NCBI GenBank assembly: GCA_902632605.1
Contig: CACPDB010000002.1
Span: 1 to 64,000 of the forward strand
DNA: 64,000 nt
Direction: 5' to 3'
From: an uncultured SAR86 cluster bacterium
Lineage (GTDB): Bacteria; Pseudomonadota; Gammaproteobacteria; Magnimaribacterales; AG-339-G14
In this document: in pieces, positions 27,527 to 49,353 of the stretch
Position numbering within the stretch: the first letter of the stretch is position 1
Layout: every line of letters starts with the position of its first letter
Program-made: the position numbers and the translations under genes
The notes under the pieces: generated by a model
Told to the model about the DNA's origin: nothing
The model's input: only the letters and a program-made list of their open reading frames with translations
The model's database searches: none

Positions 27527-28012
27527 ATGAATTTGCTGCAAGAAACGCGTGTTGTTTTAACTTTAATTCTGCTCGCTTGCATCGGTTTAATTGTCACTGC
27601 ATTTTACATGGAATACCAACTTGGGCTTGAACCCTGTCCCATGTGTATCGTGCAAAGAGTCGCCGTTGCGTTAGCTGGGGCTGCGGCACTGGTTGGCATA
27701 ATTCATAACAAATTAGACAAATTCTATTTGGGACTCACCGCTTTTTTTAGTGCTGCTGGTGGCGCTTCTGCCATCAGACATTTGTATCTGCAATCATTAC
27801 CGCCAGATCGTGTCCCGTCTTGCGGACCTGACTTAAATTATCTGCTGGATAACAATTTTGTCTCTGATGCATTGATTCAATTGTTTATAGGGGATGGCAA
27901 TTGCGCTGAAGTGATGTGGAGTCTCTTAGGCATATCCATTCCAGGCTGGGTACTGATTTGTTGTGCTGGGATATTTCTCTTGTCTCTACGCCAATTAAAT
28001 TTAAGAGGCTAA
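27527..28012 (+). CDS. dsbB: Disulfide bond formation protein DsbB
   Basis: YMEYQLGLEPCPMCIVQRVAV, multiple TM, SCGPDLNYLL. Confidence 0.93.
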   Translation: MNLLQETRVVLTLILLACIGLIVTAFYMEYQLGLEPCPMCIVQRVAVALAGAAALVGIIHNKLDKFYLGLTAFFSAAGGASAIRHLYLQSLPPDRVPSCGPDLNYLLDNNFVSDALIQLFIGDGNCAEVMWSLLGISIPGWVLICCAGIFLLSLRQLNLRG

Positions 28013-28256: not shown

Positions 28257-30404
28257 TTATGACATGGATAAGGACGCTGTTTTGAAATCTTCGATGATAA
28301 AAACATTATCTTCATGATTAAAGTTTTGTATAAAGTCATGCGCTTTTTTAAATTCTTCTGAGTCTTGAGGCTTATTATAAAAATCATGCTCGATTTCTTT
28401 TAATTTTTTTGACGTAAGTATTTCATCAGCATAATTTTTTCTAGCATCTAGACTGTATTCAACAACAAACCTAAAAAAATCGTCATCCCAATCTAACAAC
28501 CTATGCCATGCGCCAGAACATAAATCAGGAGCTGCAGCTCCTGGTAAAACTATTTCTCTTGGGTCTAGGCTCTTTACTCTGTAGCTTTTTTTGTATTGAT
28601 GGAACTTAAACCTAGGATTTGATAATTTAGATTCTAAATTTTTGAAGTAAGGAGGTTGATTACCAAATTTAGGATGTTTTGTCAGTTCAACACCCATTCC
28701 CCAATTCCTAGGGTCATTTAAATCTTCTTCCTTATCATAGAGCCAAAATCCAAAACTAACAGTTTTTTTCTTTTTATACTTAATAGTTAACATTCCAGAG
28801 TAATGAATAGTAATCTCTGCATCAGGATTTTCGACAGCATCTACTGCTTTGTATTCATTTTTTAAGATATCAACAAAGTTTTTAATTTTTTGAATGGGTT
28901 CATCAGGTATTTTTAAATCCACAATTTTTAATTTATTGGACATATCCTCTGTCTTACGTTGAATCCAATCATCAATGCCCTGATTGAAATGAGGTTTGTA
29001 AGAACCTTTTGCAGGTCTTACGTTTGGATTTTCCTTTGAAGTAATACTGGTAATTGCAGATTGTCCTAGAGCATTTGATATTAATTCTGTAAGGACATCT
29101 TTTTTACTTCCAAATTCTTCAATTAAGACTGATAAAAATCTTGAAATATCTGTTGTTTTGGCTCTTGCTCTGGGATTCAAATAACATATTTTAAATAAAA
29201 TCTTCTCCCACGACTCATCAAAGTCTTCTCCTTGTTTAGTAGCTTGTTCAAAATTAGATTGGAAATTTTCTTCCAGCATTTCTTTTCCTTGAGTAATTTT
29301 AAAAGCTATGTCTTCATCCCATTTTTGAAAATCAGGATAATCTGAAAGCAAATCATAAACTTCTGGATGGGCAGTTTGCAGACATACCATGGCAAACATA
29401 ACGGTTGCTCCATCTTTATCATTAAGAAAATTAGAATCTAAATCATCGGATAAATTATTGAAGATTTTTATCAAAGACAAAGAGTTTATAAGTCTTTTTA
29501 TTGATCTTGGATTACCTGTAATTGATAACTCAACAAAAGTTCTAATTAATTCTTCATCCAAACTTTCCTCTCCGGAATAAAAACCTATAGCTGAAAGTAA
29601 TTCAAGAACATAGTTCCCAATATCATAGTTAGACATTGGCATTTTGAAAGGAAGTTGAATAATCTTGTCAAAAAAAGCTCTGAACTCCCATTCATTTTCA
29701 GGCGTTTGTTTACCAAATTTTGCCTCCAATCCTTTAACAACAACTTGATAATCGATCGCTAATAAAAAAATACAATCTTGAATGTTGAAAATATTTTTTA
29801 AAAGCTCAAGAATTCTTACTGCATCTGGAGGGTCTATTCGATCTAAATCATCAACGTAAATTACAAATTTATCAAATGGATTAGTATCAAGGGCCTTAAT
29901 TTCGTTTGTTAGTTTTTTTAACTCTTCTCTTAATTGTTTGATTGAATTTTCATGTTGATCAAACATATCATCTGCTATATCTTTTCCTGCCGCACCCAAG
30001 GCTACGGCTCCCCCTATCCTTGCGGCTCCTCTTGCTAATTTGTTAATTCCGCTTGAAAGCTTTTCTACTCTTGTCTTTTTGTCATCTGAAGAAACTAGCT
30101 CAGAAATAATTTCATTTATTATCTTTATAAGACATTCCTCTGGAGAACATAATAATGAATGTTCCCAAGCGTTTATCCAGATTTGTTTGTATCTAACGGA
30201 ATCATCGTTTATGTCTCTTTTCTCCAATCCACTCCAAATTTGATTCAGCATAGAAGTTTTTCCACTACCCCATTCTCCTTGAATTCCAATTGTCATTGGT
30301 GTTGCGGTATTTTCAATAAAATTTAATAGGGAAAGTGTGTAGTTACTGATACTAAGTGAGTCTTCTCCATTTATTTCTAAAGCTTGATCAACTATTCCTG
30401 TCAT
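28257..30404 (-). CDS. KAP family P-loop NTPase (start at MTGIVDQALE preferred)
   Basis: Walker A GIQGEWGSGKTSML; WINAWEHS; Walker B FVIYVDDLDRIDP; FDKIIQLPF; GNPRSIKRLINSL; Gly/Ala-rich insertion between Walker motifs. Confidence 0.92.
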   Translation of the reverse strand: MTGIVDQALEINGEDSLSISNYTLSLLNFIENTATPMTIGIQGEWGSGKTSMLNQIWSGLEKRDINDDSVRYKQIWINAWEHSLLCSPEECLIKIINEIISELVSSDDKKTRVEKLSSGINKLARGAARIGGAVALGAAGKDIADDMFDQHENSIKQLREELKKLTNEIKALDTNPFDKFVIYVDDLDRIDPPDAVRILELLKNIFNIQDCIFLLAIDYQVVVKGLEAKFGKQTPENEWEFRAFFDKIIQLPFKMPMSNYDIGNYVLELLSAIGFYSGEESLDEELIRTFVELSITGNPRSIKRLINSLSLIKIFNNLSDDLDSNFLNDKDGATVMFAMVCLQTAHPEVYDLLSDYPDFQKWDEDIAFKITQGKEMLEENFQSNFEQATKQGEDFDESWEKILFKICYLNPRARAKTTDISRFLSVLIEEFGSKKDVLTELISNALGQSAITSITSKENPNVRPAKGSYKPHFNQGIDDWIQRKTEDMSNKLKIVDLKIPDEPIQKIKNFVDILKNEYKAVDAVENPDAEITIHYSGMLTIKYKKKKTVSFGFWLYDKEEDLNDPRNWGMGVELTKHPKFGNQPPYFKNLESKLSNPRFKFHQYKKSYRVKSLDPREIVLPGAAAPDLCSGAWHRLLDWDDDFFRFVVEYSLDARKNYADEILTSKKLKEIEHDFYNKPQDSEEFKKAHDFIQNFNHEDNVFIIEDFKTASLSMS

Positions 30405-30452
30405 TATTAAAACCTCTTTCAAAAAAACTTTATTTATTACTATAATAAATTA

Positions 30453-31886
30453 GTGGCTAAAAAAAAATACAGACTAACGACTTGTAATATTTGTGGAAGC
30501 CAAGCACCGGCAAATTTCATGGTACGTCATCCAAAAAAAGTGACAGCAACTTCTCGAAATACCGTTGGGGGTAAAGAAGTTGTGGGTGCCATTTTAGGAT
30601 TTCAAACATCACAAAAAGCCTTAGAAAGATCTCTACTAACGTCAAGAAAAAGAACACACACAACATACAGAACTGTCTGGATGTGTGAGGATTGTTCAGG
30701 TAAAAAATCTGAGGGAACTATTGCCAGAGAAAATCAAGAAAGAGAAGCAAAGGATTTGCTCAATGAAAAAGTAAAGCTTAATAAGGACCTTGAATACCTT
30801 GAGACAACGAAAATACCTGATCAAACAAAAATAGTTAAAGATTGGCAAAATAAATTTGATACAAAACAAGCTGAGTACATAAAAATACTTGAGGGAGGTG
30901 TAGATATTTTTCAGGGAATGAGAAATGATTTTGATTTAATCAAAAAAGATAATGCTGAAAACTTTGCAACGAATTTAATGAAAAATGAAATTTTTAGTAA
31001 CCTTAATAAGAATTATTTAAATACTAGTAAAAAAACGAATAAAAATACTAAAAAGACCATGACTCAAGCTGAAAAACTTGCTTTTAAGATAAAGGCAGAG
31101 GAACTAGCCGAGAAAATAGACAAGGAAAGAAGAAAAATAGGCACCAGATGGGAAGACAAAGCCAAAATGCGAAGATTGCTTGATGAACTTCACGCAGCTG
31201 AGGAAAAACTCAAAGTTACTAAGGAAGCACATGATTTAGCTGTTAAACAGAGATTTAGCGGCGGGCTGATAAAAAAATATCAAGACAAAAAATCCATTAT
31301 TGATCTTTACAATGAAAAACATGCGGATGTGTCTTTCAATGACGAGACAAATTTGTTTTCTTTGAAAAATTTTTCCTACAAGGAAGAATCTTTAGGGCCG
31401 GCAATATCTCCTGAAATTCAAAAAAAAATAGATTTTTGGATTGGATGGAATATTATTTTTGGAATTTTAGCAGTCGTGTTGGTTTTCTTTGAGCCCGAAA
31501 CGGCCTTTGATTCCATTGTGGGAGTTGGCATCATGTTTATGGCACCGGCCATAGTTAGAATTCTCGTATTAAAAGGAAAAAAATCTCCTGATAATAAGAT
31601 TCACAAAGTATTTTCATCATCTTTGGAAGCAAGCCTAAAAGATTGCATCGACAAGCTAAATAAAAAGGTAGAAGAGAACAGTTTATCTTTTAATTTAAAT
31701 CAATTTATTGATTACATGAAAGAATCTACTCAAGTTGGGAAAGAATTAGATGGAATAAGAGATGAATTAGAAACTCATAAGAAAGTTGTGAGTGATGACG
31801 AAACTCTAATGTATGAAATCAAAACAAAGCTTTCTACAATCACTGACAGATTAGCTGTATTAGACTCTGCAGGCGCCGCAAACTAG
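30453..31886 (+). CDS. Zinc-ribbon/coiled-coil membrane protein of unknown function (GTG start)
   Basis: CNICG...CEDCSG pair of CxxC motifs; long charged helical region; two TM (WIGWNIIFGILAVVLVFF, IVGVGIMFMAPAIVRILVL). Confidence 0.8.
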   Translation: MAKKKYRLTTCNICGSQAPANFMVRHPKKVTATSRNTVGGKEVVGAILGFQTSQKALERSLLTSRKRTHTTYRTVWMCEDCSGKKSEGTIARENQEREAKDLLNEKVKLNKDLEYLETTKIPDQTKIVKDWQNKFDTKQAEYIKILEGGVDIFQGMRNDFDLIKKDNAENFATNLMKNEIFSNLNKNYLNTSKKTNKNTKKTMTQAEKLAFKIKAEELAEKIDKERRKIGTRWEDKAKMRRLLDELHAAEEKLKVTKEAHDLAVKQRFSGGLIKKYQDKKSIIDLYNEKHADVSFNDETNLFSLKNFSYKEESLGPAISPEIQKKIDFWIGWNIIFGILAVVLVFFEPETAFDSIVGVGIMFMAPAIVRILVLKGKKSPDNKIHKVFSSSLEASLKDCIDKLNKKVEENSLSFNLNQFIDYMKESTQVGKELDGIRDELETHKKVVSDDETLMYEIKTKLSTITDRLAVLDSAGAAN

Positions 31887-32048
31887 ATGATTTTAATTTA
31901 CTTTGTCGGAGCAGTTTTAGTTGTCGCGCTATTGATAAACCTATTTAAAAACGATGATGAATTGAATATCAGAACACTCAAATATTTGCTCCCTGCATTT
32001 ATAGTGGTAAGTGTTTTATTTATTGCCTTGTTCACTTTCTTGAAGTGA
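31887..32048 (+). CDS. Two-TM micro-protein (53 aa, not in ORF track)
   Basis: MILIYFVGAVLVVALLINLFKNDDELNIRTLKYLLPAFIVVSVLFIALFTFLK; ATG abuts TAG stop of preceding gene. Confidence 0.7.
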   Translation: MILIYFVGAVLVVALLINLFKNDDELNIRTLKYLLPAFIVVSVLFIALFTFLK

Positions 32049-32096: not shown

Positions 32097-34190
32097 TTGA
32101 TGTCTTTGAAAAAACTTAAATTGAATTCAAATGAGATTAACTTTTGTATTTTCGTAGACTCTACTTTTTCTCACTTTCATATCATCCAAGCTTACTATCG
32201 ATATTTAGAAAAACTCATTAACTCTCAAGGAGGTATTGGATATAAAAAAATATTTATACACCTTCAAGATCAGTTTGAATTACAGGAAAACAAGCAAACC
32301 ATTTATGAATTTATTACGAACAATGACTTTCAATTTGTTTTGCACAACGGAGAACAACCTCATAATAAATTTGATATCAATACAGTACCTCAAAATTTCG
32401 AGCAATCCGAATGCATAGTGTTCTTTGGACGTGATAGAGATGTTTGCAATAGATATTTTAATTATTGTAAGTATGTTTACAGCACTGAAACATTTTCATC
32501 TGCAGGTGGTTATGCAGGTATAAGCAAGTTATTTCCCGAATACACCATCACGGCCGCTGTTGATGAGTCTAAAAAAGATTTGGAAGAAACGTTTAGAAAA
32601 GAAAATATAAATCCCATTTTTTGTACAAAAGATAATTTTAAAGATCTGCTTACAAAATATTTCGATAAACAGACGGACAAAGATATGTTCTATGCCTCTG
32701 CACTTTTTTACCCAGAAAATTTTTCAGAGCTAGATGTTGATGAACAAGAAAATTGGGGAGAGAGAGGTGACTATCTCTTAGACTTATTTTTTGAACATGG
32801 AGATGGAGAATTCTTTGATGGCGGAGGCGTATTTTATGAAACAGCTCAAGAGAGACTAACCATAAAAGAGAACAAAGAAAATAAATCTGTTCATTGTTAT
32901 GCCCCTTTAGATTATTTGGTTTACATGCGCTCTCAAGATATTTTAAAAACTTTTGACAAAACCCTTTCTAGTTGGAAGTTAAGTAAAATAGATAGTCGAC
33001 TTTTCCCGTCCTCAGTTATCAGTCTTCTTCAAGATATATTCAAAGAAACTAACTTGAATGATTTTAATTTTTCTGAAATTTTGGATCAGGCTGTGTTGGG
33101 TGTAAACAGAGTTGATGGGAAATCAGATATCCATAGAGGAGATTTTGGCAATATTGCTTTTCAAAACTTCGAAATGGCTCACACAGGTAAATATACCCTT
33201 GATCTTTCTCTGGCCAAAGATGGAAAGACGGTTAAAGAAAGGATGAGTAGGTATCAAAAGTTAGATTGGGATCAAAAAAATATTGACTCTATTAAGCCAG
33301 TTACTTACACCTATTTCGACATAGTAAATTTAAGAGAAATTTCAATTGAAGAAGGAACTTTTAAGGCTCAATTCTTTTTAGACATGACTTCAAAAATCCC
33401 TGATCCTATAAATATATTATCTTTCAATAATTTAGACTTAGATAAGGCAATGAAAACTAAAATTGTAAAACAAGACGAACTTGAAGGAGATTTCCATTTT
33501 TATAGATATTTAATTGACGCAAAATTTGATTTTTTTCCTGTCGTAGATAATTATCCTTTTGATAAACAACTGGTTTTTATTTCATACACCATTACGGATG
33601 AAGATAAACATGGAGTTTTACAACCCTTGCCAGTTGAAGAACTAGACAGAGAGTTTAGGCTTGAAGGTTGGCATATAAGAGATACTCGATCTGGGGTCTT
33701 TAGAAGAAAAGTTAATTTCAATACTTTCTTAGGCTCTGAAACCATGATTAAAATCGAAAAAGAAAATAGAGTTGGTTGGTTAATAAAAAGATCAAGCTCC
33801 ATGACTCTTTTGAAAGTACTAATCCCTATTTCCTTTCTTTTTGGAGTGGTTATGTACAGTGCAGCAATGCCGTCTCAGGATATTGGGCGAGCAGCAGAAC
33901 TACTAACAATTACATTTCTTGCAAGTATTGCTTTGTATTTTTCCTCAGAAAGACCTCAGCCATTAACAATGACAGTAATTGATTTTATCTTTGCCGGTTT
34001 TTATGCAATCACTGGAGTTGTTTCAATGTCTGTATTCATATTGGATTTTTTTCCGAAAGTGCATTCGTTATTAGCTGGCTACATATCGCTAGTTGTTCCA
34101 ATTGGAAGTGTGATGATGTTTCTATATTTATGGAGAAGAATTAATTCGAGTAAGTATGCTCCAAAAATGCTTTCTTCAGATGAAAATTAG
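32097..34190 (+). CDS. Pentameric ligand-gated ion channel-like (Cys-loop superfamily) protein fused to ~400 aa N-terminal PBP-I-like region
   Basis: C-terminal region has beta-rich LBD with DNYPFDKQLVF (YPFD Pro-loop), pre-M1 VGWLIKRSSSMTLLKVLIPISFLFGVVM, M2 RAAELLTITFLASIALYFSSERPQPLTMTVIDFIFAGFYAI (M2-M3), M3, M4 LLAGYISLVVPIGSVMMFLYLWRR; N-terminal LEKLINSQGGIGYKKIFIHLQDQ resembles PBP-I entry. Confidence 0.8.
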   Translation: MMSLKKLKLNSNEINFCIFVDSTFSHFHIIQAYYRYLEKLINSQGGIGYKKIFIHLQDQFELQENKQTIYEFITNNDFQFVLHNGEQPHNKFDINTVPQNFEQSECIVFFGRDRDVCNRYFNYCKYVYSTETFSSAGGYAGISKLFPEYTITAAVDESKKDLEETFRKENINPIFCTKDNFKDLLTKYFDKQTDKDMFYASALFYPENFSELDVDEQENWGERGDYLLDLFFEHGDGEFFDGGGVFYETAQERLTIKENKENKSVHCYAPLDYLVYMRSQDILKTFDKTLSSWKLSKIDSRLFPSSVISLLQDIFKETNLNDFNFSEILDQAVLGVNRVDGKSDIHRGDFGNIAFQNFEMAHTGKYTLDLSLAKDGKTVKERMSRYQKLDWDQKNIDSIKPVTYTYFDIVNLREISIEEGTFKAQFFLDMTSKIPDPINILSFNNLDLDKAMKTKIVKQDELEGDFHFYRYLIDAKFDFFPVVDNYPFDKQLVFISYTITDEDKHGVLQPLPVEELDREFRLEGWHIRDTRSGVFRRKVNFNTFLGSETMIKIEKENRVGWLIKRSSSMTLLKVLIPISFLFGVVMYSAAMPSQDIGRAAELLTITFLASIALYFSSERPQPLTMTVIDFIFAGFYAITGVVSMSVFILDFFPKVHSLLAGYISLVVPIGSVMMFLYLWRRINSSKYAPKMLSSDEN

Positions 34191-34194
34191 TAAC

Positions 34195-35802
34195 TTAATG
34201 ATCTAAGCCTACAGCCTCTGGTAAAAAGTTTATAAGCTTTTTCTTAAATTCTTCAGCTAATTCACTCCTATAAATAATGAGTTCTACTTCTTTGAAGATA
34301 TCTACTTCAACCTCTTTAAACATCTCTTTAATCTCTGAATTCCGTTTTAATAATTTTGAGCGAATAACTTCTTTTTCTTTTTTTTCTTTTGTTTCAGCTG
34401 CCAATTGAGTTAGGGATTTTATTTCTTCGTCTGTCTCAAATAAGTTGGTTAGTTCTTCTCTTTTATTTTCCCAAGGCTCCACTAAAAGTGATACTTCTTC
34501 AGATATTTTTGTATAAGCCTTTATATCTTTTGATTCCCCAAAGTACTCTTCTCCTTCATACGAAGATTTTTGATTTACTTTGTGAGCATTTTCAATCAAT
34601 GTTAAAACTGTCGCAAAAGTTTTAGGACTAAAAATACATACCTTTTTATTAGGATATTGGTGACTATCCTGAATGGAGTATTCGAGCCAAATTTGTCTCA
34701 ATACACTCCAATTAAAGGAAGAAATGTTTTTTTTAAGAAAGCTCTCTGTATCAAAGTCAGGATCAAAGTCATCTTCAAAATTGACTACCTCTATGGGTTT
34801 TTTCTTTTCATCTTCTTTATCAAGAGTTTTGGTAATATCTATTTCGTTTGTTTCAAAAAAGGATTTAGATTTTGATGCATCTTCATCTTGAGTTTTTTCA
34901 TCTGACTCTGTTTTTTCATTTCCTATTTCATCATCCGTTTCTGAACTTGTAGATTCTATATTTATATTATTATCTGAAAAGAATGAGTCCTTAGCTCCGG
35001 ATGCTGAAGCAATAGAGAGTTCCAATTCTTTCATTGCTCTTCTGTGGCTAAAGATAAGCGCAACTGCTATGAATCCTCCTAAGCCTGTTAGAGCCCAAAG
35101 TATGATGGTCGTTTCTCTTTTTTGCGCCAGCTCTGCTTCTTTTTGAATCTGAGCTTGTAGCTCCATTTCTTTTTTTCTTTTTTCTTCTTGTTCTTTTCGT
35201 TTTTTCTCAGCTGCTATTCTTTTCTTTTCCAGTTCCTCTTCAATAATTTTTCTTCTTTCTTCGTTATATGAAGTTTGAAAATCTATGGGTAATGAAGAAA
35301 ATTGATCGTTGATGAATTTTTCTAAGGGAATATTTAAATATTTTTCTAAAGTTCTAGTATTAACGTTATCTACAGTTGCGTTTGCTGAAACTGTATTCAC
35401 TTTGTTCCACTGCTCGATACCTTTTTCAATTTTATTGATTCCTCGATTGAGTTTTGTTCTTGAGGTTCCAGGTTGATTTTCTTTTATTACTTCCTCGGAG
35501 AGTTTTATGATATTTTTTCCTCGCTCCACTATCTGAGAACGATTTTTAGCCCTACACAAAAGTTCTCGACAATCCGATGCAGTTTTTCTGTCTCTGCTTG
35601 AACTTAAGTTGTCATAAAATGCACATTCAAATTTTCCCGCTAAGCTCAAACCTAAAGTAAGAAGAGCGCCAACTCCACTAGAGTGTTCCACAGATCCTGT
35701 TTTTTCCGGATTTAAGCAAATGGGCTTGCTTAAATCTTTTTTGTCTAACGGCAATAAAAAAGAAGCGAAGAAGAAGAAGAAAGTCAGCCAAAATTTGTTC
35801 AT
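34195..35802 (-). CDS. Membrane-anchored coiled-coil protein of unknown function
   Basis: N-terminal signal/TM, Lys/Glu-rich helix (EERRKIIEEELEKKRIAAEKKRKEQEEKRKKEME), central TM TIILWALTGLGGFIAVALIF, acidic low-complexity linker, C-terminal globular region. Confidence 0.75.
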   Translation of the reverse strand: MNKFWLTFFFFFASFLLPLDKKDLSKPICLNPEKTGSVEHSSGVGALLTLGLSLAGKFECAFYDNLSSSRDRKTASDCRELLCRAKNRSQIVERGKNIIKLSEEVIKENQPGTSRTKLNRGINKIEKGIEQWNKVNTVSANATVDNVNTRTLEKYLNIPLEKFINDQFSSLPIDFQTSYNEERRKIIEEELEKKRIAAEKKRKEQEEKRKKEMELQAQIQKEAELAQKRETTIILWALTGLGGFIAVALIFSHRRAMKELELSIASASGAKDSFFSDNNINIESTSSETDDEIGNEKTESDEKTQDEDASKSKSFFETNEIDITKTLDKEDEKKKPIEVVNFEDDFDPDFDTESFLKKNISSFNWSVLRQIWLEYSIQDSHQYPNKKVCIFSPKTFATVLTLIENAHKVNQKSSYEGEEYFGESKDIKAYTKISEEVSLLVEPWENKREELTNLFETDEEIKSLTQLAAETKEKKEKEVIRSKLLKRNSEIKEMFKEVEVDIFKEVELIIYRSELAEEFKKKLINFLPEAVGLDH

Positions 35803-44493: not shown

Positions 44494-45246
44494 TTGAATA
44501 CAATAGAGTTAATCAAAAGCAAACTTGAAGAAATAGGTTTTAGTGAAAAGCCAGGGTCAATTCTTTATTCGGGAAATGAAACTATCAAAAAAGGAAAGTT
44601 CTATTTTCTAGGAGCTAATCCAGGGGGTCATTCTGACCAAAAATTTGGAAACTATCCCGATACCGTTTTAAATCAATTATTGAGAAAAAATTCTTCACCA
44701 GAATTTAATGAGTATTTTGATGCTAAATGGCAAAAGAGAGGAGGCAAGCCATCTCAACCAGGCAGAGCATTACTTCAAAAAAGAATAAAGTATTTATTCA
44801 ATTATCTAGACATAAATTTAAGGGAAGTTTTATCAACTAACTTAGTATTTGTTCGTTCGCCAACTCTTGAGGAGTTTAATTTGGATTGGAGTGAAGCAGC
44901 TGATAAGTGCTGGAAAATACATGAGATTTTATTATCAAAAGTTCTTCCGGAGATTATTATCGCTTACGGTTCTGATGCTTATGTTTATATAAAAAATAAG
45001 ATGAATATTAAGAAAGAGAGTTCTTTTGAAGTTGAATCACGAAATGAAATAAAATCTTTTTATAGCGCTGAAGGCCTAATCAAGATAAATTCTGAAAATA
45101 AACTAATCAAATTGATTTCTAGTCCGCATTTGTCAAGATATAAGATTGATGCCAAAGGCGAACAACATGGAGATGCGTACGATACGAGACCTGCTTTGGA
45201 CTGGTTTATAAATGAGATATCAAAATTTTTGAAAAATGACTCGTAG
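44494..45246 (+). CDS. Uracil-DNA glycosylase-fold protein (TTG start)
   Basis: FYFLGANPGGHSDQ (motif 1 GxNPG), LISSPHLSRY (motif 2); overlaps MTase start by 11 nt. Confidence 0.72.
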   Translation: MNTIELIKSKLEEIGFSEKPGSILYSGNETIKKGKFYFLGANPGGHSDQKFGNYPDTVLNQLLRKNSSPEFNEYFDAKWQKRGGKPSQPGRALLQKRIKYLFNYLDINLREVLSTNLVFVRSPTLEEFNLDWSEAADKCWKIHEILLSKVLPEIIIAYGSDAYVYIKNKMNIKKESSFEVESRNEIKSFYSAEGLIKINSENKLIKLISSPHLSRYKIDAKGEQHGDAYDTRPALDWFINEISKFLKNDS

Positions 45247-45997
45247 GAAAGTTTTGCAATCAGAATTACATCATGAAGATTGTTTTGAAATTTTGCCCAC
45301 TCTTAAATCCAATTCCGTAGATTGCATCATTACGGACCCTCCTTATTTCCTATCGAACGATGGTATTACATGTAAAAGTGGAAAAATGGTCTCAGTCAAT
45401 AAGGGCAATTGGGATAAAAGCGAAGATTTTGATGAGATATATAGTTTTAATTTAAATTGGATTGAAGAAAGTTATAGGCTTCTAAAAGATGGCGGCACTC
45501 TTTGGGTAAGTGGTACTTATCATAATATCTTCATTATTGGCTCAATCATAAATAGTATTAAAGATTTTAGAATCCTCAATAATATTACTTGGGTTAAAAC
45601 TGCCCCACCGCCTAATCTATCTTGTAGATTTTTTACTCATTCGACTGAAACCATTTTATGGGTAAGAAAGGGAGAAAAATCCAAACATTTTTTTGATTAT
45701 GGGCTGATGAAAGAAACAAACGATGGAAAACAAATGAAAGACGTTTGGACCATTGGCAGACCCAAAAAAATAGAAAAAGAATTTGGCAAACATCCCACTC
45801 AAAAACCTGAAGAACTTCTTGAAAGAATGGTTCTGTCATCTACCAGAGAGAATGATGTAATTTTAGATATGTTTAATGGTTCTGGAACTACAGGAGTTGT
45901 GGCTCTTAGAAACAATAGAAAATATATTGGAATTGAATTGGAAAAAAAATATTTCAATATGACAAAAAAAAGAATTAGAAAGTGGCAACAGTTTTAA
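45236..45997 (+). CDS. DNA adenine methyltransferase, DpnA/M.DpnIIB-like
   Basis: DCIITDPPYFLSNDG (DPPY), HPTQKPEELLERMV, DMFNGSGTTGVVAL (order DPPY then FxGxG). Confidence 0.88.
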   Translation: MTRRKVLQSELHHEDCFEILPTLKSNSVDCIITDPPYFLSNDGITCKSGKMVSVNKGNWDKSEDFDEIYSFNLNWIEESYRLLKDGGTLWVSGTYHNIFIIGSIINSIKDFRILNNITWVKTAPPPNLSCRFFTHSTETILWVRKGEKSKHFFDYGLMKETNDGKQMKDVWTIGRPKKIEKEFGKHPTQKPEELLERMVLSSTRENDVILDMFNGSGTTGVVALRNNRKYIGIELEKKYFNMTKKRIRKWQQF

Positions 45998-46872
45998 CGG
46001 GAACCGATGTAAAACCTGTTTTAAAGTGGGCAGGTGGCAAAAGAGAACTTGTTCCAGAAATCAGAGAATTCTATAAAAACTTATCCCCAACAAAATACGT
46101 TGAACCGTTTTTTGGAGGAGGCGCGGTATATTTCGACATCCTAAAAACCTTGGGAATTCAACACAAAGAAACTGCCATTATCAATGATGTTAACCAAGAC
46201 CTGATTGACATGTATCGAAATATTAAAAGCAATCCAAAAGAGCTTTTGTATTGTTGCAATAACCTAAAAAAAGAATATGAAGAACATGGTTATTACTTCC
46301 TTAGAGAAAAGTTTAATGGATTGGACAGTAATAAAAATAATATCGAAAGATTTGAAGGCATAGAGCGTTCTGCGGCACTAATCGTAATAAATAGAACTTG
46401 TTTTAACGGATTATATAGAGTGAATAGTAATGGGTTTTTTAACGTTCCTAAAGGAAGTTATAAAAATCCAAGAATTGTTGATGAGGATAATTTATACAAA
46501 CTATCCAATTTACTTCCTAAGATGGAAAATATTAGGTGTCAGGAATTTGATGAAATTAAAGATATCAATAAAGGAGATTTCGTTTATTTTGATCCGCCAT
46601 ATTATCCCTTAAACGAAACTTCTTCATTTACTGCTTACAGCAGCTCTTTTGGAAAGAATGAGCAAATTAGGTTGAAAGATTATTTTAAAAAGCTCAATGA
46701 ATCTGGCGTTTATGTCATTTTGTCAAACTCTTCTTCCCCATTTATAGAAGAAATATATAGTGAATTTCAAATCTTGAAGATTTATGCAGGAAGAAATATA
46801 AATAGCAAGGCCCAAAAAAGAGGAAAAATACCTGAGTTTTTAATTCTTGGGGATAGCGTAGTCAGCCAGTGA
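45982..46872 (+). CDS. Dam-type DNA adenine methyltransferase, DpnM/M.DpnIIA-like
   Basis: PVLKWAGGKRELVPEI, EPFFGGGAVYFDI, INDVNQDLIDMYR, FVYFDPPYYPL. Confidence 0.92.
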   Translation: MATVLTGTDVKPVLKWAGGKRELVPEIREFYKNLSPTKYVEPFFGGGAVYFDILKTLGIQHKETAIINDVNQDLIDMYRNIKSNPKELLYCCNNLKKEYEEHGYYFLREKFNGLDSNKNNIERFEGIERSAALIVINRTCFNGLYRVNSNGFFNVPKGSYKNPRIVDEDNLYKLSNLLPKMENIRCQEFDEIKDINKGDFVYFDPPYYPLNETSSFTAYSSSFGKNEQIRLKDYFKKLNESGVYVILSNSSSPFIEEIYSEFQILKIYAGRNINSKAQKRGKIPEFLILGDSVVSQ

Positions 46873-47780
46873 AAAAATTAAATTTTTATAAAAAGCGGGA
46901 AATGAATACGCAAAAAAAGGTTTTTGAGGATTTGATTGATTCATTCTTGCTAAATAATAGAACTTGGGAATACTTTATAAACTGGCAAAAGGTATATCAA
47001 AGAACTGCTGACGTAAAAACAGAATTAAACGTTTTAAATTCTTTATGCAAATCAAAAAATTTTGATAGCGATTTAAAGAACATTTTAAAGAAATATCCTG
47101 AGGTGACAAAAGCCTTTCCAACTCTCTTAGGCATTCGAGATAAACAAATAAGTGTAATGGATAGCAATTCTTTACCGGAATTCAATTACATTGAGTTTTA
47201 TTTTAATGAACCTCCAAAAACAAAAGAGGAAATAGAAAATTTTGTTTTATTTTTTGAAAAAAGTGGTTTAAAAAATCTTATTTTAAATAGTGGTTTAACC
47301 AACCTGGCAGATTATGCTCATGGAGTAGAAGTCGGCTTAGATTCTAATGGGAGAAAAAATAGAGGCGGCTCTATTATGGAGGACTTAGTTGAGGTGATAC
47401 TCAAAAAGGTTTATCAATTAGATGAGTCTTCTTATATGACGCAAAGCTCGCCATCAAAAGTAAAGCAACTGTGGGATATCGATCTGCCTGTGGATAAGAC
47501 TTCTAGAAGGCCAGATTTTCTAATTCGCAAAAATCAGAAAATTTTTTGGATTGAAGCTAATTTTTTCTCTGCTGGTGGCTCAAAGTTAAAGTCTACTTGT
47601 GGTGAATACAAATCTTTATTCGATTTTTGTAGGAAAAACGGAATAGAATTCATTTGGATAACTGACGGAGCAGGCTGGAAAACAGCATTAAAACCTCTCG
47701 AGGAAACATTTGAGCATATTGATTACATATTCAACTTAAGAATGTTAAAAGACGGAATACTGAAAGATTTATGGAATTAG
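46869..47780 (+). CDS. DpnII-type restriction endonuclease (predicted GATC)
   Basis: YAHGVEVGLDSNGRKNRGGSIMEDLVE, TSRRPDFLI...IFWIEANFFSAGGSKLKSTCGEYKSL...ITDGAGWKTALKPLEE. Confidence 0.9.
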   Translation: MKKLNFYKKREMNTQKKVFEDLIDSFLLNNRTWEYFINWQKVYQRTADVKTELNVLNSLCKSKNFDSDLKNILKKYPEVTKAFPTLLGIRDKQISVMDSNSLPEFNYIEFYFNEPPKTKEEIENFVLFFEKSGLKNLILNSGLTNLADYAHGVEVGLDSNGRKNRGGSIMEDLVEVILKKVYQLDESSYMTQSSPSKVKQLWDIDLPVDKTSRRPDFLIRKNQKIFWIEANFFSAGGSKLKSTCGEYKSLFDFCRKNGIEFIWITDGAGWKTALKPLEETFEHIDYIFNLRMLKDGILKDLWN

Positions 47781-47851: not shown

Positions 47852-48319
47852 GTGACTAAAGTTATAAAAACATCTTATTTGCTTGCCCTTAGTCTTGCGA
47901 TAGGCTTTTTAAGTGCTTACACCGCATTGGAGGATATTCGGGTGATAGATGGAGATACCATCCGAGCAGAAGCCAAAGGGAAGGAAATAAAAATTCGTTT
48001 GGTAGAAATTGATGCACCTGAAATAAATCAACCTTTTGGCGCCAAATCGAAAAACTTTTTAAATAGATTGTTATATAAAAAAAATGTAACACTTATTTCC
48101 CAAGGAGAAGATCGATACGGCAGAATTTTGGGAGAAATATATGTTGATGGTGAGAGTGCAAATACATCAATGATCAGATCTGGATTTGCTTGGGTTTATG
48201 ATAGATATGTTAAAGATTTGTCTTTATATAAGTATCAGGATCAAGCTAAAGCTGAAAATTTAGGCTTATGGCAAGGTGATGATCCGATTGCTCCTTGGGT
48301 GTGGCGCAAACAAAAATGA
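47852..48319 (+). CDS. Secreted thermonuclease-like (SNase) protein (GTG start)
   Basis: Signal peptide; RVIDGDTIRAEAKGKEIKIRLVEIDAPEINQPFG; DRYGRILGEIYVDG; AKAENLGLWQGDDPIAPWVWRK. Confidence 0.9.
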   Translation: MTKVIKTSYLLALSLAIGFLSAYTALEDIRVIDGDTIRAEAKGKEIKIRLVEIDAPEINQPFGAKSKNFLNRLLYKKNVTLISQGEDRYGRILGEIYVDGESANTSMIRSGFAWVYDRYVKDLSLYKYQDQAKAENLGLWQGDDPIAPWVWRKQK

Positions 48320-48333
48320 ATTAAACTGTTCTG

Positions 48334-49353
48334 ATGCGTACTTTTCTGGCTAAACTTTTATTCAAATTGCCTGCTAGCATTCTGATCAGATGGTCCGGTA
48401 AAGAGCAAATTGAAAAAGGCTATCGTAAGTTGGATCCTGGTTTTCAATACTTATTAAAAGTTATGGAAGATACTGGTGCGAAACTTGATACTTCGAAGCC
48501 TGCAGCAGAATTACGCAAAGAGTTTGAAGAAAGTCGCGGTTTGCTTTCTTTGCCCTTACCTTCGGGAGTCAGAACTACTGATCACATAATTAAATCAAAT
48601 GGTGCAGAGATAAGAGTTAGAGAATACTCGCCAGAATCAATTGGAAATATGTATCCTGCAGTGGTTTACTTTCACGGCGGTGGATGGGTCATTGGTAGTA
48701 TTGAGTCGCATGAAGCTTTTACGGGATTTTTAGCAAAAGAACTCAAAGCAAAAATTTTCTCAGTGGATTATCGTTTAGCACCAGAACATCCCTTCCCTAT
48801 CCCTTTGGCCGATTGTGAAGCTGCTTTCAACTGGGTTAAGGACAACGCACTGGATTTGGGCATCAATCCAAATCGAGTATCAGTTGGTGGCGATAGCGCA
48901 GGAGGAAATTTATCTGCTGCTTTGTGCGTAAAACGCAAACAAGAAGAACTATTGATGCCAAAAGCGCAATTACTTATTTATCCGGTTACTGATCTTTCTT
49001 TGAAACATCCTTCTATGGATGAAATGGCTGAAGGTTTCTTTTTAACCAAAGCATCAATGGAATTCTTCCGTGATCAATACCTTGAAAGCGATGAGTTAAC
49101 AAAAGACCCTCTGATTTCTCCTCTGTTTGCAGATGATCTTTCAGGTCATCCGCCAGCTGTTGTGGTAACTGCAGGATTTGATCCCCTTAGAGATGAAGGT
49201 GATCAATACGCACAAGCTTTAAGGCAAGCCAATGTCGAGATTTACCATCGCACCCATGACAGTTACATTCATGGCTTTGTAAATATGATGCTAGTCGATG
49301 GAGTCGACTATGCTCTAAAAAGAATTTGCGACGATTTCAAAAAGATTTTTTAA
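48334..49353 (+). CDS. Alpha/beta hydrolase (hormone-sensitive lipase-like)
   Basis: VVYFHGGGWVIG, VSVGGDSAGGNLSAAL, TAGFDPLRDEGDQYAQAL. Confidence 0.93.
   Translation: MRTFLAKLLFKLPASILIRWSGKEQIEKGYRKLDPGFQYLLKVMEDTGAKLDTSKPAAELRKEFEESRGLLSLPLPSGVRTTDHIIKSNGAEIRVREYSPESIGNMYPAVVYFHGGGWVIGSIESHEAFTGFLAKELKAKIFSVDYRLAPEHPFPIPLADCEAAFNWVKDNALDLGINPNRVSVGGDSAGGNLSAALCVKRKQEELLMPKAQLLIYPVTDLSLKHPSMDEMAEGFFLTKASMEFFRDQYLESDELTKDPLISPLFADDLSGHPPAVVVTAGFDPLRDEGDQYAQALRQANVEIYHRTHDSYIHGFVNMMLVDGVDYALKRICDDFKKIF

Follow-up and report, generated by a model that had tools for sequence, protein, structure and literature searches.

Gene content of the locus and its integration hotspot

The window (the whole stretch of 64,000 nucleotides analysed here, derived from a SAR86 genome of 1.2 Mb) contains an ORF of 697 open codons on the forward strand, located at positions 32097-34190. 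The ORF as such is confirmed: An ATG at 32100 immediately follows the TTG at 32097, and no ATG, GTG or TTG codon is found between the ORF start and the in-frame TGA at 32046. The predicted protein combines an N-terminal domain with the ligand-binding beta domain (LBD) and the four transmembrane (TM) helices of a pentameric ligand-gated ion channel (pLGIC). All features are listed in Table 1.

Table 1. Features of the channel gene and of the surrounding hotspot, with positions in the window.
Feature	Position	Strand	Remarks
dsbB-like gene, left border of integration hotspot	27527..28012	+	congener comparison
KAP P-loop NTPase	28257..30422	-	PF07693, 7.6e-37; neighbour, not conserved partner
477-aa protein, CxxC...CxxC zinc-ribbon-like N-terminus, hydrophobic TM stretch	30453..31886	+	kept beside pLGIC in G003
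pLGIC gene	32097..34190	+	696 aa counted from ATG 32100; TTG 32097 as alternative start; without signal peptide
N-terminal sensor domain, probably PBP-I type (INSQGGIGYKK), predicted cytosolic	32100..33266	+	weak homology at domain level, without relevant Pfam match
pLGIC ligand-binding beta domain, residues ~396-563	33285..33788	+	profile, structure model, Foldseek
Pro-loop motif YPFD, residues 485-488	33552..33563	+	invariant among SAR86 relatives
M1, residues 567-585	33798..33854	+	invariant Arg564 before, invariant Pro576 within
M2, pore-lining helix (predicted), residues 598-616	33891..33947	+	alignment
M3, residues 630-648	33987..34043	+	invariant Asp628 before helix
M4, residues ~657-680	34068..34139	+	alignment, structure model
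Basic C-terminal tail (RRINSSKYAPK...)	34134..34187	+	almost all canonical pLGICs lack such a tail or have one with little charge
535-aa membrane-anchored protein	34195..35802	-	adjoins pLGIC in G003 too
DpnII-type restriction-modification operon, other hotspot cargo	45236..47780	+	PF04556, 6.2e-93
Nuclease (SNase) and esterase, right hotspot border	47852..49353	+	congener comparison

A preliminary description of this DNA had placed the channel gene in a defence-like island, next to a KAP NTPase, a nuclease-helicase module and a restriction-modification (R-M) operon. These neighbours were confirmed by Pfam (RNase_H_2/AAA_12 in case of the nuclease-helicase), which additionally recognized RmuC, and the island proved to be a true accessory hotspot with defence cargo. 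The hotspot dsbB-rmuC-nuclease-esterase (window 27527-49353) is variable across this SAR86 genus. In five congeners (G004, G011, G012, G013 and G009) 1.4-2.1 kb lie between the dsbB-like gene and the esterase gene, and the gap extends to about 4 kb in G010, 13 kb in G007, 12 kb in G015, 20 kb in the window and 21 kb in G014. The cargo comprises the DpnII R-M operon in the window, MzaB/C/E in G014 (L110) and PsyrT in G015 (L109).

Further ORFs were observed within the hotspot. Between the zinc-ribbon gene and the channel lies a hydrophobic ORF of 53 codons with likely two TM segments (window 31887-32048). Its start codon directly adjoins the zinc-ribbon stop codon (TAGATG), and some 50 bp separate its end from the channel start. 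Directly before the DpnII operon lies a gene resembling the uracil-DNA-glycosylase superfamily (window 44494-45246), whose PF03167 score of 8.4e-4 is below the cut-off. In G015 dsbB is adjoined by a relic (L109:13056-13157) that corresponds to the 34 terminal codons of a window-type channel; the channel gene of this genome itself is of another type and its halves lie on two contig ends.

Assignment of the channel and of its N-terminal domain

For the assignment of the channel a profile of 21 other pLGICs was used, from which SAR86 sequences of the window type were left out; the pLGIC set had been gathered via Pfam PF02931 and via the Filomicrobium homologue. Among all 208 window ORFs of at least 60 codons the channel ORF was the sole match (E 3.8e-10, LBD through M3), and the other SAR86 relatives matched the same profile with E values of 1e-14 to 1e-17. 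Conversely, a profile of the SAR86 family, with two canonical members included, retrieved ELIC (9.7e-10) and GLIC (2.7e-7). For the 306 C-terminal residues AlphaFold2 gave a model (pLDDT 70.6, pTM 0.65) with LBD strands and four helices, which Foldseek assigned to GLIC, GABA-A and sTeLIC structures (E about 1e-14 to 1e-13, probability 1.00, TM 0.6-0.7). The Pro-loop Y485-D488, R564 ahead of M1, P576 in M1 and D628 at M3 are invariant across alignment A2. The pLGIC module which the preliminary description had proposed for the C-terminal end is thereby borne out, and the motifs it quoted are present at their places.

Searches of the window protein in Pfam (including the gathering scores of Neur_chan), in PADLOC and, by single-sequence phmmer, in the PDB yielded nothing relevant, which indicates that the channel protein is divergent. 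L021, a sister sequence with signal peptide, is likewise without a Neur_chan match; the Neur_chan models thus miss the whole branch, and the Pfam test is not discriminating. As judged from profiles and structure model, the ORF encodes a divergent pLGIC with homology well beyond chance. In M2, numbered after GLIC by alignment, the gate leucine at 9' is retained. The charges near the selectivity filter vary between members (L014 has E at -2', L020 has D at -1', and the window has R at -1' together with E at 2') and do not indicate a particular ion selectivity.

The domain of about 390 residues ahead of the LBD opens with a beta strand, a helix and a motif, INSxGGIGG, of the kind usual in PBP-I domains; its predicted model follows an alternating beta/alpha order. 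The full-length AlphaFold model is poor (pLDDT 50), and the N-terminal domain is not usable from it. Direct comparisons gave no relevant match in Pfam, 4gnr as best match of the domain profile in the PDB (E 0.21) and an hhalign result against PBP-I with an E value of 0.004 but a probability of 8%; with the purer set A6 as query PBP structures were not retrieved. In the nearest relatives the same place is occupied by Peripla_BP_6 (L021 3.4e-11, L050 2.1e-21, L051 1.6e-14). Motif, beta/alpha order and descent from PBP-I-fused pLGICs suggest that the N-terminal domain is probably of the PBP-I type, although the direct tests are weak and do not make the assignment significant by itself; to this degree the corresponding earlier proposal can be upheld.

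Distribution, phylogeny and selection

The family is present in 10 of 204 genomes of the SAR86 order; the match in an eleventh genome (G202) is a canonical pLGIC outside the family. In the phylogenetic tree the SAR86 family forms one clade on a long stem (support 100/99), which is grouped with L021 (Filomicrobium), L050 and L051 with a support of 100/98. These nearest relatives are PBP-I-fused pLGICs of alphaproteobacterial type. No relative of the channel was found on plasmids and viral contigs, and among 395 alphaproteobacterial and 387 gammaproteobacterial genomes no further members of the presumably inverted kind were detected, the additional hits examined being canonical, one of them with a cut N-terminus.

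Between SAR86 relatives with intact full-length frames dN/dS amounts to 0.08-0.11, which supports purifying selection on the channel; the ratio of 1.25 for the pair L016/L017 was set aside, since a local frame change in one sequence inflates it. Selection and profile results contradict a chance ORF. A decayed ORF that does not yield a functional channel might be suspected from the copy in G003 (CM1_5m.P123), which is interrupted by many stops. However, this copy is 98% identical to the window DNA over its full length with only small gaps, and a helicase gene on the same contig is broken as well, which indicates indels of the assembly. Together with the low dN/dS values, this makes a chance or decayed ORF highly improbable.

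Some observations on the individual loci may be added. The G003 assembly (L013, L117) contains many small indels that break genes. In G007 and G015 a very acidic ORF of 122-123 aa with long Asp or Glu/Asp runs (L020:8178-8546 and L034:1121-1492) ends 5 bp ahead of the channel start, probably within one operon. In TMED226 a voltage-gated-type Ion_trans channel (PF00520, 8.1e-45; L018:5691-6410) is encoded upstream of the pLGIC at a distance of 2.7 kb; it was not seen in the two related loci.

Membrane orientation and possible function

Two features of the SAR86 family, the absent signal peptide and a reversed charge pattern, were missing from the preliminary description. Tasneem et al. (2004, PMC549065), who surveyed bacterial pLGICs for the first time, reported that all those they found had a signal peptide. 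In six SAR86 members and two N-terminal fragments the most hydrophobic 15-mer of the first 110 aa scored 0.54-1.28, compared with 1.6-3.6 in those canonical pLGICs whose N-terminus is complete and plausible. The long predicted N-terminus of L050 scored 1.07 and the same gene with a later start (L074) 1.99. By this hydropathy measure no signal peptide is present in SAR86 members with known N-terminus, and the frames upstream of the channel starts are closed. The sisters L021, L050 and L051 possess signal peptides and a normal charge pattern.

The charge bias was computed on the channel-domain alignment. K and R residues were counted in the two loops that are cytosolic in canonical pLGICs (M1-M2 and M3-M4), and the number found in the segments lying outside in these proteins (M2-M3 loop, C-terminal tail) was subtracted. 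For the seven SAR86 sequences the bias amounts to -8, -8, -7, -6, -6, -5 and -3, for 27 canonical pLGICs to 0 to +7, without overlap; the Mann-Whitney p value of 5.5e-5 is optimistic, since the SAR86 sequences, being of common descent, do not count as independent. In a further 16 loci, a few of which are re-fetched genes, the bias ranged from +1 to +7, whereby the +5 of L078 is too high because the alignment cut part of its basic tail. The result is stable under shifted segment borders. Compared with canonical pLGICs, the SAR86 family has an M3-M4 loop that is shortened by about five residues and holds one or two basic ones; the C-terminal tail holds four to seven. The signal comes from the family; the window sequence shows it least of all (bias -3) and is not significant by itself (p = 0.30 on shuffling within the sequence). 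A positive-inside check on window proteins was mixed, with incomplete TM detection in both of them (DsbB 5 in/2 out, TatC 5/5). In G202, which belongs to another SAR86 family, the canonical pLGIC (L032:117-1652) has a signal peptide and a bias of +4, so that the charge shift does not originate from low GC content or SAR86 composition. SAR86 hence holds both kinds of channels, canonical and window-type.

The missing signal peptide together with the reversed charges points to an inverted topology, which alters what the channel could sense. We estimate at roughly two in three the probability that the protein is a PBP-I-pLGIC homologue in which the signal peptide was lost and whose orientation in the inner membrane is the opposite of that of other pLGICs. 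The fold, the sister-group relation, the absent export signal, the reversed positive-inside pattern of charges and the purifying selection in relatives are supported, and as two separate features agree, topological inversion appears to be the simplest reading. Less probable by far is a canonical topology, in which the N-terminal domain would be exported without a cleavable signal, e.g., with M1 as reverse signal anchor. The pLGICs that have been studied do face outward, and the PBP-I-fused relatives were predicted as periplasmic sensors (Tasneem et al., 2004, PMC549065), but about 560 residues ahead of M1 would have to cross the membrane without a signal, no member has a hydrophobic N-terminus, and the four to seven basic residues of the tail would come to lie in the periplasm while the supposedly cytosolic loops carry only one or two.

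With the inverted topology, the cytosol would contain the N- and the C-terminus as well as the PBP-I-like domain and the LBD. Five subunits would surround a pore lined by M2, most likely as a homopentameric inner-membrane channel. An intracellular small molecule binding to the PBP-I-like domain, the LBD or both may open the pore, which would alter the ion content or the membrane potential. By default we read the protein as a channel gated by a metabolite or by stress.

The window channel shares LBD and TM fold with GLIC, ELIC and sTeLIC and has profile similarity to ELIC and GLIC (about 15-18% identity in structural alignments to GLIC/sTeLIC-type structures), whereas these channels have no extra N-terminal domain and a periplasmic LBD. 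In LacI-family repressors and AmiC the PBP-I fold serves as intracellular small-molecule sensor, but without fusion to a channel. Closest are the PBP-I-fused pLGICs (PMC549065; L021, L050, L051), which have the same order of PBP-I-like domain (in the SAR86 family a probable one), LBD and four TM helices and the short M2-M3 linker in common with the SAR86 family. They differ in their signal peptide and in an M3-M4 loop that is basic; the SAR86 family lacks both and carries a basic C-terminal tail. DeCLIC is also a pLGIC with an extra N-terminal domain; this domain, however, lies in the periplasm, is built from two beta-sheet lobes (PMC12664993) and is not PBP-I-like.

The preliminary description had furthermore suggested that the channel could act as depolarising effector or sensor in a conflict system, and that its homologues be surveyed for recurrent KAP and zinc-ribbon partners. 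Such a recurrent partnership with KAP, zinc-ribbon and defence genes is not supported. In G003, the nearest copy, the zinc-ribbon, channel and 535-aa genes are kept and KAP is absent between dsbB and the zinc-ribbon gene; KAP was therefore rejected as channel partner. The channel occurs in the hotspot only within the genus of the window (G000, G003 and the relic in G015). In other SAR86 clades it is found beside SDR/glyoxalase genes (one genus, in which the three genomes examined agree in their neighbours), beside alpha/beta-hydrolase/methyltransferase genes (two genomes) or beside tRNA-synthetase/porin/acyl-CoA-ligase genes, and comparison of G003 with these loci revealed no partner genes conserved across the orthologues. 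The neighbourhood survey thus retained the zinc-ribbon gene in G003, but neither KAP there nor a defence setting in the other clades. The channel is not tied to a defence setting, and with orthologues among housekeeping genes and KAP missing at the nearest copy a defence role is not supported.

We accordingly regard it as doubtful that an inward-facing channel depolarises the cell on an infection-derived intracellular signal, with KAP and zinc-ribbon partners as sensors. The location in a hotspot whose cargo is DpnII R-M in the window and Mza or PsyrT genes in its congeners, the sporadic occurrence of the gene and its relic tail beside dsbB would fit such an effector, as would a cytosolic sensor on a membrane pore; against it stand, besides the neighbourhoods, the absence of a second-messenger enzyme near the channel and of a PADLOC match for the channel itself. 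Just as speculative is an inverted pLGIC forming the depolarising output of an intracellular alarm, whose pore would be opened when a small molecule derived from infection or stress binds to the cytosolic PBP-I-like/LBD sensor, with the neighbouring zinc-ribbon membrane protein as accessory. Overall, the preliminary interpretation is partly supported.

In the open-access literature we found no description of inverted pLGICs or of pLGICs in SAR86. In textbooks the pLGICs figure as receptors that face outward. If the inverted topology holds true, the whole gating machine can work upside down. The clade would then exemplify topology inversion within a receptor family and provide a system for studying ligand gating from the cytosol. 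It would also imply an unknown intracellular signal in SAR86, a widespread group of uncultured marine bacteria.
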